Source: Paeniglutamicibacter kerguelensis (GTDB lineage: Bacteria > Actinomycetota > Actinomycetes > Actinomycetales > Micrococcaceae). From it: DNA of 64,000 nt. The translations under genes and the position numbers were made by a program. The notes beneath the pieces were generated by a model. The model saw only the letters and a list, made by a program, of their open reading frames with translations, was not told where the DNA came from and did no database searches. Positions 2,530-13,405 of this stretch are shown here, one piece after another. The stretch is from positions 744,001-808,000 of the forward strand of contig NZ_JAGIOF010000001.1 in assembly GCF_017876535.1 (NCBI RefSeq), given 5' to 3'. The first letter of the stretch is position 1, and each line of letters starts with the position of its first letter.

Positions 2530-2952
2530 GGGCTGGGAACACATCAACCAAAGCATCGCCGGGCCGACAAGGCCCTCGCCTCCGCCAACCGGGACGGCGA
2601 CCAGCTCGTCAACACCCGCCTCGACAGGCTCGGCCGGTCGGTACTGCACCTCGTCACTCTCGACGCAGACCTCCGGGAACGTGGTGTGGGATCCGAATTT
2701 CAACGCGAACTAATCATCGCCAACACCCGCGATGGACTTGCGGCCGCCCGCGCCCGGGGACGAACCGGAGGACGACGCCCGAAACTCACCTTCGCCCGGG
2801 CCCGCCATGCCCAACAGCTCTACGACGCAGGGAACCACACCGTCCAGCGCATCGCCGATCTGTTTCAGGTCCCGCGCTCCACGATCTACGGCCATCTCGA
2901 CAAAACAAGCATCGGACGGCGAGCCACTGGCGGCGCCCCTGACCCGGCGTAA
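2530..2952 (+). pseudogene. serine resolvase remnant with an internal deletion
   Basis: One continuous frame reads GTHQPKHRRADKALAS, then NTRLDRLGRSVLHLV, then DADLRERGVG and directly EFQRELIIANTRDGL, followed by ARARGRTGGRRPKLT and a helix-turn-helix (IADLFQVPRSTIYGHL). This is a Tn3/Pin-type serine recombinase. The N-terminal part with the catalytic serine is missing, and about 30 residues between the conserved LRERGV and EFQRELI blocks (where GIDTTTPTGRLLFHMLGA-like sequence normally lies) are deleted. An ATG at 2686 opens only the DNA-binding half. The fragment cannot code for an active recombinase. Confidence 0.75.
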
Positions 2953-3111
2953 CAGCAGCTTCGACCAGAATCCCTGCTGCCTGGCCGCACCGGCCTGCTA
3001 CATTCGGCCTTCTCGTTCTCACGCGTTCGATCGGCGTGCGTGGCCTGGGCACTGGCGTCGGACCCTTCGCGCATTCACGAACAACCCATAATCGTGAAAA
3101 CCCGTACCGAT

Positions 3112-3138
3112 CCTCCTCAGACCTCTCAGACCTCTCAG
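3112..3138. repeat. 9-bp tandem repeat
   Basis: The unit ACCTCTCAG occurs twice in direct succession at 3121-3138 and is preceded by a partial unit, 50 bp beyond the 3' end of the carrier-protein gene. It lies in noncoding sequence between the recombinase remnant and that gene. No function is evident. Confidence 0.6.
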
Positions 3139-3187
3139 ACCCCCGAATCTAGAACCATGCATTCCCCACCATCGAGCGTGGCAGATT

Positions 3188-6100
3188 TCAGGCGTACTTG
3201 GATCCCACACCTGATACGGTCCTTTCCAAGGCGACGGGGGACGTGGCGGCGGCACGGGCCTCGTCGGCCGGGTTGCCACCCCACACGGATCCCCGGGAGA
3301 GGGTCGTCCCCTTCATCACGAAGGAGTCGGCGGCGACGACGGCACCGTCTTCTATGGTCACGCCGTAGTGGACAAGGGCGCCGACGCCGAGCGTGACGTC
3401 GTCCCCCATGACGTTGTGGTCGGACTTGAACATCCCGTCCTCCTGGGAGTGGGATTGAACCGTGCTGCCGGCGTTCAGGGTGCAGCGGGAGCCGATCGTC
3501 ACCAGGCTCCGCTCGGGGAACGAACAGCCGTCGTCAAAGACCCGGGAGCCCATCTGCACGCCCATCAGACGCCAAACCAGCGGCTTGAACGGCGTCCCGT
3601 CGAGGATGGCGATGTATCGGCCCTGGATATGCAGCTTCCAGTACCGCTCGTGCCACCAGAAATATGGGTTGTAGATGGAGCAGAGCTGGGGCTGAAGCCT
3701 CCGGAACCCCGTCACGACGTGCTCGATGCCGATGCCGACCAGCAAGCCGACCAAGAGCGCCACGGCAAACGACGCGCTGAGGATGAGGAAACCGAATTGG
3801 TCGGACAGCTCGAGGGCGGCGAACATCGCCAGCAGGGCCAGCGAGGCGTTGAACCACCGCGCCAGCATCAAGAGCGCGATGGTGCGCAGGTTGTGCCGGT
3901 TCTTGGCCGAGAGGTCCCGGCGAAAGCGGGCACGGCCCGCATGCTCCTCGGGAAGCGCGTCCCGCAGGACCGAACGGGGGATCTCGAACGCCGGCGAGCC
4001 GAGCAGGCCCACGTCGTGGCGCACCGGTCCGTCGATGGGGACCTCCACCATGGTCGCGAGCAGGCAGTTGTCCCCGGTCCTGGCCCCGGCCGGGAAGGAA
4101 ACGCGGTTGCCAAGGAAGTTGTGCGCGCCGATCGCCGCCCGGCTGACCTTGAACGACGTCGCCGAGTAGTCGGCATTCATGAACGACAGCCCGTCGGCGA
4201 TCATCGTGCCGGTGCCTATCGTCGACAGGAACGGGGTGTCGTGCTTGAACGCCAAGCCGAGATTCGAGCCGGTCTGCTGGACCTGCGGCTGGTGGTACCC
4301 GATGGCCCGCACGTAGTTCACGACGTACGAGCTGTCACCGAACACCTGCCCAAGCATGGGACTGTTGGTCAACCTCGCCACCGCCCGCGCCGCAGCGTCC
4401 CGCAGCCCGAACAGCGGATACACCGTGTCGGGCTTCACCGCGAGCTGGAGCAGCCGCGGCACGGTCGTTGCGACGACCATCGCCAGGACCGTTGCACCGA
4501 AGACACCCAGGCCAGCGAGTGCGACAGCGTCGGCGTAGAACGTCCAGTCCGCGAACGCGTACGGGTGCGCCTCCAGAAGCGCCGCCACGGGTGGATACGC
4601 CAGGACGAAAAGCGTGACCACCAGTCCCACCATGGTGCGGCCCAGCCCCACCGTGCCCAGGAGCTGGGACACGGCGAACCATCCCCGCCGCCACGGCCGG
4701 TAGGGCGTGGCCTCGACCGTGCTGAAGTCCACATCCGTGCGCCTGCCCGGCGAACCGTGCCACCGCTCACCAGCGGGCACGGCTTGGCCGGTGTACAGAG
4801 TGGACCGGTGGCCCAGTTGCGAGCCGTCTCCCATCGCCGTGTCGATGTCCAGGACGCTGCCCTCGCCGACGGTCACGTCCCGGCCCAGCGTGACCCCACC
4901 CAACTGGATGACGCCGCCGTGGGCGCGGTAGCCGTTGGCGACCACGTCCTTGCGGATCACCGTCCCCTCCCCGATCGTGAGCAGGTCGGTGCAGATCGGC
5001 AGCCGGTTGGTCAGGATCGTCACGTTGCGGCCCACCTTGGCGCCCATGGCGCGAAGGTAGAAGGTCGTCAGCGGGGAACCGGGCATCATCGAGAGGGGCG
5101 AGGTTCGCATCAGGGCCTTGACCAGCCAGAACCGGAAGTAGGCCAGGCTCCAGATGCGGATCTCCCGGGGCCGGAAGCGCCCGACAAAGATCCACTTCGC
5201 GGCCACCGGCAGGATGCACATGAGCACGAACACCACCACGGCGTAGACGATCGACCGCAGGTAGATCGCCCAGAAGCTCGTCCCGTGGGCCAGCCAGTAG
5301 TGGTTCCCCGGTTTCGCCTCGGGGAACAGCCAGTAATACCCCACGACCGCGAGCGCGCCGGCGAGGATGCAGTAGCCGAGGTAGACGAGCACCTGCAGGG
5401 CGCCACAGGTGACGTACTCCCACGTCCGTGCGTCCATGGGCCGCGGCGTCTCCGGCATTGACGCCAGGACTGGTGGGAGCACCTGCGGCTGGTCTTGCTG
5501 CAAGGGGTCTTGCAGGGCCGCGGCCAGGGCCGCGATCGTCGGGCTTCCGTAGATGTCCTTCATGGACACCTTGGGCAGGTCCGGCTGCTTGCGCACCCGG
5601 GCGCAGAACTGCGCCATCACCAGCGAGTCCGCGCCCAGGTCCTGGAAAAAGTCGCTGTCCACCGGGACATGGTCAATGCCCAGCACGCCGGCCAGCACCT
5701 CCGCCAACCGGCCCTGCACGGGCGACATCGCCGGTTCCGCCGGCGCCAGGGCCGCGATCGTCGGGTGCTGGTAGATGTCCTTGATGGACACCGCCGGCAG
5801 GTCCGGCTGCTTGCGCACCCGGGCGCAGAACTGCGCCATCACCAGCGAGTCCGCACCCAGGTCCTGGAAAAAGTCGCTGTCCACCGGGACATGGTCAATG
5901 CCCAGCACGCCGGCCAGCACCTCGGCCAACCGGCCCTGCACGGGCGACATCGCCGGTTCCGCCGGCGCCAGGGCCGCGGCCAGGGCCGCGATCGACGGGT
6001 GCTGGTAGATGTCCTTGATGGACACCGCCGGCAGGTCCGGCTGCTTGCGCACCCGGGCGCAGAACTGCGCCATCACCAGCGAGTCCGCACCCAGGTCCTG

Positions 6101-6307
6101 GAAAAAGTCGCTGTCCACCGGGACATGGTCAATGCCCAGCACGCCGGCCAGCACCTCCGCCAACCGGCCCTGCACCTGCACCTGAGCCGTCGCACCCGTG
6201 GCCGGCGTTGCTGGAGAGCCGTTCCCGGCCGGAGCCGCGGGTGTCTCCGCCGTGTGGGGCGCCGTGGGTTCCGTAGCCGATTCCGCTTTCTGCCTTCTGG
6301 CACTCAT
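3188..6307 (-). CDS. Pls/PosA-like membrane protein with three carrier domains and no adenylation domain
   Basis: 1039 residues. After an Ala/Pro-rich N-terminus (1-43) come three almost identical phosphopantetheine carrier domains, each with LGADSL; the attachment serines are Ser76, Ser154 and Ser228. From about residue 300 the protein follows the C-terminal half of Pls/PosA-type nonribosomal peptide synthetases (epsilon-poly-lysine synthetase family): pairs of transmembrane helices alternate with three hexapeptide (left-handed beta-helix) regions, roughly 415-520, 690-780 and 920-1020, which in Pls form the tandem condensing domains. The usual N-terminal adenylation domain is absent and none is encoded elsewhere in the window, so amino-acid loading would need a partner in trans. 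The ATG at 6307 has GAGG upstream. It is a single gene, flanked by transposon remnants. The product is unknown; an acyl or aminoacyl transferase role at the membrane is inferred. Confidence 0.85.
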   Translation of the reverse strand: MSARRQKAESATEPTAPHTAETPAAPAGNGSPATPATGATAQVQVQGRLAEVLAGVLGIDHVPVDSDFFQDLGADSLVMAQFCARVRKQPDLPAVSIKDIYQHPSIAALAAALAPAEPAMSPVQGRLAEVLAGVLGIDHVPVDSDFFQDLGADSLVMAQFCARVRKQPDLPAVSIKDIYQHPTIAALAPAEPAMSPVQGRLAEVLAGVLGIDHVPVDSDFFQDLGADSLVMAQFCARVRKQPDLPKVSMKDIYGSPTIAALAAALQDPLQQDQPQVLPPVLASMPETPRPMDARTWEYVTCGALQVLVYLGYCILAGALAVVGYYWLFPEAKPGNHYWLAHGTSFWAIYLRSIVYAVVVFVLMCILPVAAKWIFVGRFRPREIRIWSLAYFRFWLVKALMRTSPLSMMPGSPLTTFYLRAMGAKVGRNVTILTNRLPICTDLLTIGEGTVIRKDVVANGYRAHGGVIQLGGVTLGRDVTVGEGSVLDIDTAMGDGSQLGHRSTLYTGQAVPAGERWHGSPGRRTDVDFSTVEATPYRPWRRGWFAVSQLLGTVGLGRTMVGLVVTLFVLAYPPVAALLEAHPYAFADWTFYADAVALAGLGVFGATVLAMVVATTVPRLLQLAVKPDTVYPLFGLRDAAARAVARLTNSPMLGQVFGDSSYVVNYVRAIGYHQPQVQQTGSNLGLAFKHDTPFLSTIGTGTMIADGLSFMNADYSATSFKVSRAAIGAHNFLGNRVSFPAGARTGDNCLLATMVEVPIDGPVRHDVGLLGSPAFEIPRSVLRDALPEEHAGRARFRRDLSAKNRHNLRTIALLMLARWFNASLALLAMFAALELSDQFGFLILSASFAVALLVGLLVGIGIEHVVTGFRRLQPQLCSIYNPYFWWHERYWKLHIQGRYIAILDGTPFKPLVWRLMGVQMGSRVFDDGCSFPERSLVTIGSRCTLNAGSTVQSHSQEDGMFKSDHNVMGDDVTLGVGALVHYGVTIEDGAVVAADSFVMKGTTLSRGSVWGGNPADEARAAATSPVALERTVSGVGSKYA
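5513..6178 (-). repeat. three near-identical in-gene repeats coding for carrier domains
   Basis: Within the Pls-like gene, three direct repeats of about 234, 222 and 222 bp encode carrier domains that differ at only a handful of residues (Ser/Thr and Ile/Met changes near the ends). Synonymous positions are also almost unchanged: the second and third copies differ at a few bases. Spacing between the carrier serines is 78 and 74 codons. The uniformity points to recent duplication or continuing gene conversion. Confidence 0.9.
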
Positions 6308-6717
6308 CAGGGACCTCGGGATTCATCTCAGTTGCTATCTGGTGCCCCCCGATAGCAGCGCCACTGCCATCAATCCCTCACTGAATCGTTGTCGCCTCGC
6401 AACGGAGGCGTCAGCGTGCTGGCGGCAGACGGTTGCCGGTTCGGGCGGGAGGTGCCATGCCCAAAATGACGGCGTCCATGCTGTGGGAAATTCGCTGCGT
6501 ACGTAAACGGGGGGATGCTTTTGCCGAATCCGGACGCTCTGGCTCTGATCGTCCCGTCTGCCCTTCCGCCGCCGAACCATCTTCTTGCTTTCCCAAGCTC
6601 CGCTTCAGCGGCCCCGCATTCCTCACTGGATGCGTTCCGCCGTGCCCCTGCAGTCTTCTTTCATGTTAGGCGGAACCATGCGGGCAGGGTACCCCCCCTC
6701 TCGAGCATCTTCAATGG
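6308..6717. other. intergenic region upstream of the Pls-like gene
   Basis: About 410 bp between the start of the Pls-like gene and the ATPase remnant. It must hold the promoter of the Pls-like gene, but no clear -35/-10 pair stands out. Short open frames exist on both strands, but none has family-like sequence or a convincing ribosome site. Confidence 0.5.
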
Positions 6718-6905
6718 GTCGTCGCGAGCTTCGTTCGGATCACCGGTGGGAACTTCCGTTTCGTCGACCGGTTGCTCGCCCAGATCGAACGTTTCCAAAC
6801 GGTCACCGACCTCACCGTTCTCGCGCTCGAGACTGTCGATACCGCACGGCAGGCCCCGATGATCGGCCATTAAGCACTGTGAAAACCACGCCATTTACCG
6901 TTGCG
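6718..6905 (+). pseudogene. 3' end remnant of a second transposon AAA ATPase
   Basis: The plus strand reads RITGGNFRFVDRLLAQIE, then TVDTARQA and MIGH and stops at TAA (6871-6873). This is a diverged copy of the last 50 codons of the ATPase gene ending at 2478. Similarity continues about 30 bp past the stop (a shared GTGAAAA and GCCATTTACCGTTG) and then ends abruptly in both copies, which suggests a common element boundary. The N-terminal five-sixths of the gene is absent. Confidence 0.8.
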
Positions 6906-7139
6906 ATTCACATATTTAACTGTCGGAAATTTATCGATCAGGTGTCGCGGTCGGGGATCGGCAAATAGGTCGCCTTATGCTGTGTCGGATTGGCGATGCG
7001 ACCATTCGGGGCAATTTGACGCGGGAAACCCGAAATTCCGCTTGTACTTAACTGTCACGGGACAGCCACGTCCGCGCCATGAACGACACAAGTTGTATAG
7101 GTATCAATACACGAAAGAGACTCGACAACGCCGGTCCGC

Positions 7140-7817
7140 TCAGCCTTCTCCGAAACCGGATGCCAAGAGAGCGGCGAGGGCATCGACGGCGTTCCTGCCC
7201 TCGGGGTCCGCGGTGGCGATCTCCACGTCGCTACCGCGGACGAGACCAAGAGCCATGATCGCGAGCAGGCTCGTCGCATCCTGGCCGTTCACCGTGACCT
7301 CCGATGGGAAGGTGCCGGCGAGAGTCACGAAGTCGGCTGCCGGACGCGCATGGAGGCCGTCGCGGTTGACGAGGGTCACCACTCGTGAGTACGCGGGGGA
7401 TTCCGTGGCCCCAGCGGCCGGCGAAGGGGCCACGGCCGTCGGAACAGCGGTCCGGGCGGCAGCCGCGACGCCGTCGAGGTCAGCGCCGGTCTGAGCCGCG
7501 ACGGCGGCGACGACCCCGCCTTCGACGAGTGGGGCGTCGACGATGCCCACTCGGGACCGTTCGTCGTCATCGAGGAAGTCGAGCGCTGTCTCGGCGGTGA
7601 GGATGGCGGAGCCGAGGTCGCAGAGGATGACCACGCCGTCCCCGGACTGGGCCCGCGCGATGGCGGCGGTCACGAGATCGAAACTCGTGCCGATGCCGCC
7701 GTCGTCCATTCCACCTGCGGCCACCAGGGAAACATCCGGTGCCATCTGCCGGGCCAGGTCGACCAATCCGTCGGCGATCTTGGCGCTGTGGGAGACGAAG
7801 ACGAGACCGACGGTCAT
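7140..7817 (-). CDS. dhaM: dihydroxyacetone kinase phosphotransfer subunit DhaM (EIIA-HPr fusion)
   Basis: 225 residues. Residues 1-120 form the mannose-type PTS EIIA domain with the phospho-accepting His10 in FVSHS; an Ala/Pro linker (120-142) leads to an HPr domain with His156 in NRDGLHARPA. It passes phosphate from the PTS to the ADP bound on DhaL, which phosphorylates dihydroxyacetone held by DhaK. It lacks the enzyme I-like domain found in the E. coli protein, so phosphate must come from a separate enzyme I. The ATG overlaps the DhaL stop by four bases (ATGA), showing coupling in a dhaK-dhaL-dhaM operon. Confidence 0.93.
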   Translation of the reverse strand: MTVGLVFVSHSAKIADGLVDLARQMAPDVSLVAAGGMDDGGIGTSFDLVTAAIARAQSGDGVVILCDLGSAILTAETALDFLDDDERSRVGIVDAPLVEGGVVAAVAAQTGADLDGVAAAARTAVPTAVAPSPAAGATESPAYSRVVTLVNRDGLHARPAADFVTLAGTFPSEVTVNGQDATSLLAIMALGLVRGSDVEIATADPEGRNAVDALAALLASGFGEG

Positions 7818-8461
7818 GGCGACGCCGTTCCGCTGGCGGTGTCGGCCGCCGCCCGCAGCAGCAGAGCCGTCGACTGGGCACCGGGGTCGCGATGCCCGAT
7901 CGCACGTTCGCCCAGATAGCTGGCGCGCCCCTTGCGCGCGACGAGCGGCTCGGTCGCCACCGCACCCTGCTCCGCCGCGTCCGCGGCGGCCGCGAGCACC
8001 GCGGCGACATCGACGCCCCGCCCGACGGCGGCATCGGCGGCGTCGACCGCGGGGGTCCAGACGTCAACCATGGTCTTGTCGCCGCTCTCGGCCTTCCCGC
8101 GGAGCACGATGCCGTCCCTCGCCGCCCGGAGCAGCGCGGCGAGCGCGCCGCCATCGAGTTCGACCAACCCGGCCACGGCGCCGGCCGCCTTCAGGTACGC
8201 GGTTCCGTACAGCGGTCCCGCCGCCCCGCCGACCGTGGAGATGAGTGTCGTCGCCACGAGCTTGAGCACGTCGGCGGGGATGGCATCCGCCGGCAGGGTA
8301 TCGAGCTTGGCGATGACGGCGGAGAAGCCGCGGTCCATGTTCTCTCCGTGGTCGCCGTCGCCGATGTCCCGGTCCAGGGTGATCAGCTCCACCCGGTGGG
8401 CGGCGATGACGACGGCGCTCGTCCTCACCCAGTCGATCATCCAGTCGACACCCAAGCTCAT
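7814..8461 (-). CDS. dhaL: dihydroxyacetone kinase ADP-binding subunit DhaL
   Basis: 215 residues. The nucleotide- and magnesium-binding aspartates are visible in the segment DRDIGDGDHGENM (Asp30, Asp35, Asp37), and the rest has the all-helical DhaL pattern with the conserved GGAAGPLYG. In PTS-type kinases DhaL keeps ADP as a permanent cofactor that is re-phosphorylated by DhaM and then phosphorylates dihydroxyacetone in DhaK. It lies 81 bp after dhaK and overlaps dhaM. The gap to dhaK includes a short GGGTC repeat (about 8478-8496). Cytoplasmic. Confidence 0.93.
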   Translation of the reverse strand: MSLGVDWMIDWVRTSAVVIAAHRVELITLDRDIGDGDHGENMDRGFSAVIAKLDTLPADAIPADVLKLVATTLISTVGGAAGPLYGTAYLKAAGAVAGLVELDGGALAALLRAARDGIVLRGKAESGDKTMVDVWTPAVDAADAAVGRGVDVAAVLAAAADAAEQGAVATEPLVARKGRASYLGERAIGHRDPGAQSTALLLRAAADTASGTASP

Positions 8462-8542
8462 CGGGTTTCCTTTCGTCGGGTCGGGTCGGGTCGCGGTCAC
8501 TGGTCATGGTCCCTGGTTGTCGTCACGGGTAGTGGCCACAGG

Positions 8543-9541
<999 letters not shown>

Positions 9542-13061: not shown

Positions 13062-13405
13062 GCCGTGCGATCGCCAATGGGCGTGTATTGCGGCGCCTGA
13101 GGTACTGAGACGCCAGATTCGTTTCTGTACCGAGCAACGCCAACACGGTGTGGTGTGGAGAACTGCAACTTGCCTCGATTCCCGGTAGTCTTATACGTGG
13201 TTGTCCGTGTATTGCGGAAAACCAATACAAACAATTACTCCCCGGACCATGCCACCGCAGGTCCCCGCCGCACAGATCGCGGTCCTCGGTAGTGGCTTTC
13301 GCTCTGATTCATCATGTAGCGCGAGTCTCGATCGAAGACCAGATCCGGGCAGGGCACATCGGTTCGCTGCATTCCCCGGGGAGCGATCGAAAGGAATGCC
13401 CCCAC
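13062..13405. other. leader region of pnp, without rpsO
   Basis: 344 bp between the lipoprotein and pnp. It codes for nothing recognisable; in particular, the ribosomal protein S15 gene that commonly precedes pnp is absent. A weak promoter candidate is CTTGCC near 13169 and TATACG near 13192 with 17-bp spacing. The start of pnp at 13406 is set by GAAAGGAATG upstream. Confidence 0.45.

Follow-up and report, generated by a model that had tools for sequence, protein, structure and literature searches.

A spare Pls/PosA-type membrane tail without an adenylation domain in Paeniglutamicibacter kerguelensis, probably loaded in trans

Introduction

In the literature consulted, Pls-type polymerases are single proteins in which an adenylation (A) domain fixes the monomer. 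What, then, could charge such an enzyme when this domain is missing? The question is raised by a 64,000-nucleotide stretch of Paeniglutamicibacter kerguelensis (the window, C1:744001-808000 of a genome of 4.8 Mb), in which a minus-strand gene encodes three carrier domains followed by a Pls/PosA-type membrane tail. Comparison of this gene with its paralogue and relatives suggests that it is probably a spare, trans-loaded polymerase subunit of a split Pls/PosA-type system, and that this system probably uses L-2,3-diaminopropionate (Dap).

Domain architecture of the window gene

The gene is an open reading frame (ORF) of 1039 aa at 3188-6307 on the minus strand, with an ATG start and uninterrupted up to its stop. 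A Pfam search identified three PP-binding domains (PF00550, 132.7 bits against a cut-off of 20.8), with carrier serines Ser76, Ser154 and Ser228, and no match to the AMP-binding domain PF00501. The NCBIfam model TIGR02353 (Pls/PosA NRPS_term_dom) covers aa 300-1014 over its full length (1-695 of 695) with a score of 640 bits (cut-off 423). The protein is a member of this tail family, yet it is no complete Pls synthetase, because a cis A domain was searched for and is absent. An AlphaFold2 model (41 sequences, mean pLDDT 76.5) shows four-helix carriers at aa 39-112, 122-187 and 196-266, followed by three units of a helix pair and a beta-helix, and the best PDB matches of the tail in Foldseek are hexapeptide acyltransferases such as maltose O-acetyltransferase. 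An earlier note, made from the letters alone, had described the three serines, a membrane part with three hexapeptide helices and the missing A domain, and all of this holds. The features are as follows, all on the minus strand.

3188-6307: three-carrier Pls/PosA-tail gene without A domain, 1039 aa (ORF, Pfam, NCBIfam)
5975-6175: carrier domain 1 (aa 45-111), phosphopantetheine Ser76 at 6080-6082 (Pfam, own hidden Markov model, HMM)
5744-5941: carrier domain 2 (aa 123-188), Ser154 at 5846-5848 (Pfam, own HMM)
5519-5719: carrier domain 3 (aa 197-263), Ser228 at 5624-5626 (Pfam, own HMM)
5519-6175: near-identical tandem DNA array encoding the three carriers, period 222/234 (Tandem Repeats Finder)
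3266-5410: Pls/PosA membrane tail (TIGR02353, aa 300-1014), three times a helix pair and a left-handed beta-helix (NCBIfam, AlphaFold2 model, Foldseek)
4736-5047: first beta-helix, about aa 421-524 (AlphaFold2 model)
3998-4249: second beta-helix, about aa 687-770 (AlphaFold2 model)
3260-3559: third beta-helix, about aa 917-1016, with the widely conserved Q951, S954, E956 and K961 (AlphaFold2 model, conservation count)

Units of the tandem array match each other at 94-98%. The three carrier DNA copies differ pairwise by 9, 14 and 19 positions over 204 bp, and the encoded carriers are 93-98% identical as protein. Since the carriers are near-identical tandem DNA copies and the layout recurs widely (see below), the architecture is no chance product.

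An operon paralogue elsewhere in the genome

Three further TIGR02353 matches above the cut-off are present in the genome. Two of them, at C1:546 kb and C1:849 kb (L045 and L046), are fused enzymes, with an AMP-binding match in one reading frame with the tail. By eye, their A domains carry D-F-E and D-A-E pockets, and the strain may make further poly-amino acids with them. The third match, at C1:2639697-2642678, is a paralogue of the window gene, 95% identical and 1.9 Mb away; it encodes 1122 aa with four carriers and no A domain. It lies in an operon of six genes on the minus strand of locus L044.

L044 13060-14133: SbnA
L044 9695-13063: four-carrier tail paralogue
L044 7077-9698: adenylation-carrier (A-T) loader
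L044 6070-7080: TauD oxygenase
L044 5006-6073: SbnB
L044 3836-4954: LuxE, sixth gene

Overlaps of 4 bp link the first five genes, from SbnA to SbnB, and LuxE starts after 51 bp. The SbnA and SbnB homologues pass both curated L-Dap equivalog cut-offs, with 392.7 bits for TIGR03945 (cut-off 350) and 418.4 bits for TIGR03944 (cut-off 327). Just downstream of the operon, at L044 1808-3076, we noted by eye an IS110-like transposase ORF.

It had been stated that neither a loading enzyme nor a phosphopantetheinyl transferase (PPTase) lies near the window gene. This is correct for the window, inside which our genome searches gave no AMP-binding or PPTase-type match. Both kinds occur elsewhere: the genome holds 21 AMP-binding matches, two of them the fused Pls-type enzymes, and three PPTase-type matches, two of which flank the fused enzyme at C1:849 kb. 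The likely loader lies beside the paralogue.

Distribution of tails without an A domain

Of 7994 candidates scored in a protein search, 3483 were relatives, and PF00501 was found in none of the best 120 listed; proteins of 0.55-1.75 times the query length were admitted, so that fused enzymes of about 1400 aa were eligible. A contig scan of genomes kept 79 named loci, whose tail frames were compared by blastp with two A-domain types. This analysis assigned 58 loci as A-less and 21 as fused; four of those counted as A-less (L087, L089, L105, L125) begin at a contig edge, where loss of the A domain is not demonstrated. The earlier note had named the opposite outcome, in which all close homologues have an A domain and this gene is a decayed truncation; neither part agrees with these counts or with the little-decayed state of the window copy described below.

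An A-T gene of the type with a D-I-W pocket is present in the same locus in 49 of the 58 A-less loci, against 3 of the 21 fused ones. Among these 49 loci, with partner genes counted at bits over 200, 41 have SbnA, 42 have SbnB and 43 have the oxygenase. Some partner is missing from ten, eight of which are contig edges; the other two are L123 and L131. The same core genes are found together in Arthrobacter, Kocuria, Geodermatophilus, Pseudonocardia, Streptomyces and Pseudogulbenkiania. The earlier note had no view of the operon, which in our strain lies outside the window. The nine remaining A-less loci comprise five orphan tails (L078, L086, L092, L120, L142), a broken operon (L091), a contig-edge copy (L125) and two negative cases (L130, L150). 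L091, from Arthrobacter ipis, appears broken or rearranged across contigs.

Carriers were counted with our own HMM in 53 of the 58 A-less frames, after dropping the edge or interrupted frames L087, L089, L091, L105 and L125. One carrier is present in 24 tails, two in 14, three in 13 and four in 2. Fused proteins have one carrier each, save L108, L119 and L128 with two. Within the genus (15 genomes), only the strain's own genome has a tail match above 47% identity or the A-T gene, which makes the distribution of the system patchy.

Comparative evidence for probable loading in trans

The number of family genomes with both genes points to a loader acting in trans, as had been proposed. In a sample of 295 genomes (A-T gene at E<=1e-200, tail at E<=1e-100), A-less tails at 71-100% identity were found in 18, and the A-T gene in those same 18. 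The other 12 tail-positive genomes have matches of 38-49% only; none of them has the A-T gene at E<=1e-200, and all 12 have a Pls-type A domain before a tail, 53-83% identical to the strain's own fused one. One of the 18 genomes (G155) has a second tail at 49% identity adjoining a second loader, SbnB and oxygenase, so low tail identity alone is no sign of fusion. This locus (L182, G155:C275) is a more distant split system, its tail being 49%, its loader 65%, its oxygenase 81% and its SbnB 87% identical.

In six of the 18, two A-less copies accompany a single A-T match. The A-T gene is also present in 6/6 genomes with a true orphan tail (L078, L086, L092, L120, L142, L157), besides our strain's own, and in the genomes of L091, L108 and L125. 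Several of these genomes are the same assemblies as in the family set, and the two counts are not independent.

The fused proteins provide a second comparison. A motif check of all 21 showed that 17 retain A3, the pocket Asp, A5, A7 and A8. In L108, L119 and L128 the A3, pocket aspartate, A5 and A8 motifs are lost, and L101 has an altered A3 and nothing beyond A5. The three fused loci with an A-T gene in the locus (L101, L119, L128) are all of this dead-A kind, and for L108 the A-T gene lies elsewhere in the genome. At E<=1e-150, a loader is present in the genomes of 4/4 proteins with a dead cis A domain and 0/9 with an intact one (L116, L121, L122, L124, L135, L136, L145, L148, L151). In a tree of 39 chosen rows the dead-A proteins fall in two separate, well-supported places among the A-less ones; L116, with intact A domain, is their sister, with support of 97/95 for the join and 87/84 for the A-less and dead-A set. 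Most simply, a single recruitment of the trans loader would have been followed by repeated loss of the cis domain.

In genomes whose tails lack a cis A domain or have a dead one, a loader gene is found, with the exception of L130, L150 and a broken loader in the genome of L131. These exceptions weigh against our reading: L130 and L150, both metagenome-assembled genomes (MAGs), have no loader in locus or genome, and the loader in L131's genome is interrupted by stops. The same is true of the L123 locus, which lacks SbnB and the oxygenase, and of two limits of the counts, namely that operon linkage partly accounts for the co-occurrence of tail and loader, and that the loader in the genomes of L101, L119 and L128 was already known from the locus before the test. 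In L130, the contig breaks off directly behind the tail. In L150, from a Nitrosocosmicus (archaeal) MAG, the Pls tail is preceded by a Pls-type A domain in a frame of its own, which represents either a frameshift or another kind of split.

If the co-occurrence came from operon linkage only, the carriers could be loaded by another adenylating enzyme while the operon A-T protein makes a different product. The 21 AMP-binding matches, including the two fused Pls-type enzymes, offer candidates for this role. We consider it improbable, since the A-T gene follows dead and not intact cis A domains and also accompanies orphan tails to which it is not linked. Loading of the window tail in trans is well supported by these comparisons.

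Duplication and state of the window copy

Comparison of the window with L044 by blastn showed that the two own tail genes are 95.5% identical as DNA over 2990 columns, and 91% over the N-terminal piece. Two further features on the minus strand mark the extent of the duplication.

3212-6243: segment in common with the operon paralogue (L044 9698-12981), from blastn pieces over carrier repeats and tail
3188-3211: extra C-terminal codons (GVGSKYA) and a new stop past the duplication junction, from sequence comparison

The homology breaks off at the stop codon of the paralogue, and the rest of the L044 operon stretch has no match anywhere in the window at E<=1e-3. Because DNA similarity is confined to 3212-6243, the copying was limited to the tail gene. 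The two copies have diverged unevenly: over blocks of 95 codons, synonymous change runs from no difference at all to 0.24 substitutions per site (Ks), and in blocks of 60 codons the operon copy is the nearest of the compared loci in 11/13, other Arthrobacter-type tails in 2/13. This pattern suggests recombination or gene conversion.

If the window gene were an unexpressed copy of the operon gene in the course of decay, with no function of its own, it would also stand alone, and no operon gene lies beside the window copy in the first 20 kb of the window. The C terminus that extends past the junction agrees with decay, as do two results that count against a working copy: the ratio of nonsynonymous to synonymous change (omega) between the two own copies is 0.59, above the values to relatives (it is 0.61 for the pair L083/L142 too), and no sigma-70-like promoter was found in 2700-7200, where 0.5 were expected and the test is weak. 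We nevertheless think decay unlikely. The frame is open, the three serines are intact, and none of 151 strictly conserved columns (kept in at least 95% of relatives) is altered. In the tail, the 51 amino acid positions at which the two own copies differ are evenly divided, the window copy agreeing with the consensus in 22, the operon copy in 24 and neither in 5; omega against four relatives is 0.26-0.33 for the window copy and 0.28-0.31 for the operon copy, and second A-less copies are found in 6/18 genomes. As judged from its sequence, the window copy shows little sign of decay.

Two other views of the copy were abandoned. That it is a lone relic was dropped as main reading on the finding of the 95% identical operon paralogue and on the lack of an excess of conserved-site changes. 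One ancient lineage of second copies was rejected too, since the orphans L086, L092 and L157 group with the operon copy L084, and L078, L142 and the window copy group elsewhere.

Opposite the tail gene, at 3368-5461 on the plus strand, lies an ORF of 697 aa, and an ORF of equal length (697 aa) lies opposite the operon copy. It is most likely a by-product of GC-rich codon use.

Loader, monomer and proposed mechanism

Pfam identified an A domain, its C-terminal part and a T domain in the A-T protein, which has the motifs FTSGSTGEPKG, NGKIDR and LGGTSL; the HHxxxD motif is not present in it. From aligned motifs, by eye, its pocket code is D-I-W-Q-V-A-A-D-D-K, with small variations across operons. 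In the available portion of PMC12283262 (section 16), codes for 2,4-diaminobutyrate (Dab) include DVWQMIGDDK, and Dap codes are said to be close; the loader matches this Dab-class code at 6/10 places by eye, and neither DIWQ nor DIWE was found on searching that portion of the text.

Dap is the likely monomer and our best guess, favoured because the SbnA and SbnB homologues exceed the curated cut-offs and adjoin the loader. The earlier note had left the product as an envelope modification or a short peptide; this can be narrowed to what would be a diaminopropionate-type isopeptide. Two features of the operon sit uneasily with it. The A domains of cationic homopoly(amino acid) (CHPA) synthetases are all described with a D-x-E pocket in the available part of PMC10522769, and because the loader has D-I-W the monomer may be something other than plain Dap. 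The TauD oxygenase, in which one H-x-E/D motif (HHE, residue 109) is present and whose solved relatives are all distant, has no assigned part in the scheme, and any role for it would be conjectural.

In the scheme that we propose, the SbnA and SbnB homologues would produce Dap, and the separate A-T protein, whose N-terminal half-condensation region has no catalytic motif, would activate it. The aminoacyl group would then pass in trans to the tandem carriers of the tail, either straight from the A domain or by way of a transfer step. The membrane tail with its three beta-helices would link the units by isopeptide bonds, as in poly-lysine synthetase, and in this genome the single loader gene would supply both the operon tail with its four carriers and the window tail. 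The Streptomyces A-T protein has a thioesterase-like domain at its end. A match to such a domain of L106 is found in 17/79 loci, with Pfam PF00975 confirmed in L106 only; LuxE is found in 13/79, and the two occur together in no locus. At a guess, both could serve transfer or release.

Alternatively, the carriers might act as a shuttle and the tail might transfer Dap, singly or in short chains, to an acceptor that is a lipid or part of the cell wall. Its nearest folds are O-acyltransferases and Pfam found no exporter family among the six operon proteins, as would suit such an envelope modification. We regard it as improbable, given that the characterised tails (Pls, PDAP synthetase, PosA) yield free polymers according to the available parts of PMC4668381 and PMC10522769, and that 43 polar positions are kept at >=97% in split and fused tails alike (96 rows, L046 left out). 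More tentatively than the trans-loaded subunit itself, we can imagine a distinct class of split synthetases, in which loader and a carrier-acting oxygenase would feed an oxidised Dap unit to interchangeable multi-carrier membrane polymerases. The polymer would then fall outside the known homopoly(amino acid)s, and extra tails such as the window copy could give other chain lengths or outputs while drawing on one and the same loader.

Comparison with known systems

The synthetases of epsilon-poly-L-lysine (Pls), poly-ornithine (PosA) and other CHPAs resemble the window protein in their TIGR02353 tail, six transmembrane helices, three beta-helices and carrier or carriers before the tail. They differ in their single carrier and in a cis A domain whose pocket is D-x-E, whereas here there is no A domain, the carriers are three or four, and the D-I-W loader is encoded by another gene. 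In shuttles of the SyrB1 type, an A-T protein, an Fe/2-oxoglutarate oxygenase and an alpha/beta-hydrolase aminoacyl transferase feed carriers in trans, but they supply ordinary nonribosomal peptide synthetase modules with no Pls membrane tail.

The closest parallel for the supply of Dap is the poly(diaminopropionic acid) (PDAP) synthetase of Streptomyces albulus PD-1 with NjxA/NjxB (PMC4668381), where cysteine-synthase-like and ornithine-cyclodeaminase-like enzymes supply L-Dap to a Pls-type tail; that synthetase is one A-T-tail protein, and the available portion of the paper describes neither an oxygenase nor a split loader. In streptothricin ORF19/ORF18 (PMC9606270, as far as the available text goes), a stand-alone A protein acts on a chain bound to another protein's carrier and forms an isopeptide, but the A domain itself mediates chain growth and a Pls tail is unmentioned there. 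The tandem acyl carrier proteins of polyunsaturated fatty acid (PUFA) synthases share the carriers in tandem, and their output rises with carrier number in the part of PMC5067506 available to us; they are fatty-acid enzymes, without Pls membrane tail or amino acids. By this analogy, it is plausible that tandem carriers would raise flux.

We found no description of A-less or split Pls enzymes in the open-access literature on poly-amino acids and Pls-type enzymes, and no product name for a split system; subscription journals fall largely outside this literature, which makes it weak evidence of absence. A similarity network restricted to 1100-1800 aa, as given in the available part of PMC10522769, would omit many split tails. 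That the split occurs in nature, and that relatives with a dead cis A domain nest among the A-less tails, indicates that the membrane polymerase is separable from its loader and that its carriers can be multiplied. It opens two questions to test, namely how the tail selects the aminoacyl donor and whether chain length is set by the tail copies, and the split layout could allow different loaders and polymer builders to be freely combined. With 49 loci that have both tail and loader, dozens of named genomes are likely makers of an uncharacterised diaminopropionate-type product.

Genomic surroundings of the window gene

No conserved neighbours of orphan tails were detected at E<=1e-15 in six orphan loci including the window (L120 left out). 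Near the window tail gene, at 1525-2478, lies an AAA ATPase ORF (PF13401). AAA ATPases of this type often accompany transposases. On the other side, three consecutive minus-strand ORFs at 7140-9541 resemble, by eye, DhaM, DhaL and DhaK of the dihydroxyacetone kinase system. A DhaM relative at E<=1e-30 is confined to the strain's own genome among the 15 of the genus, so this stretch may be recently acquired; for the same count, an empty-site test based on DhaM was uninformative. Further along, at 13278-13343, an Actino-pnp leader RNA (Rfam RF01688, 48 bits against a cut-off of 47.7) marks the start of a gene similar to that of polynucleotide phosphorylase (PNPase).

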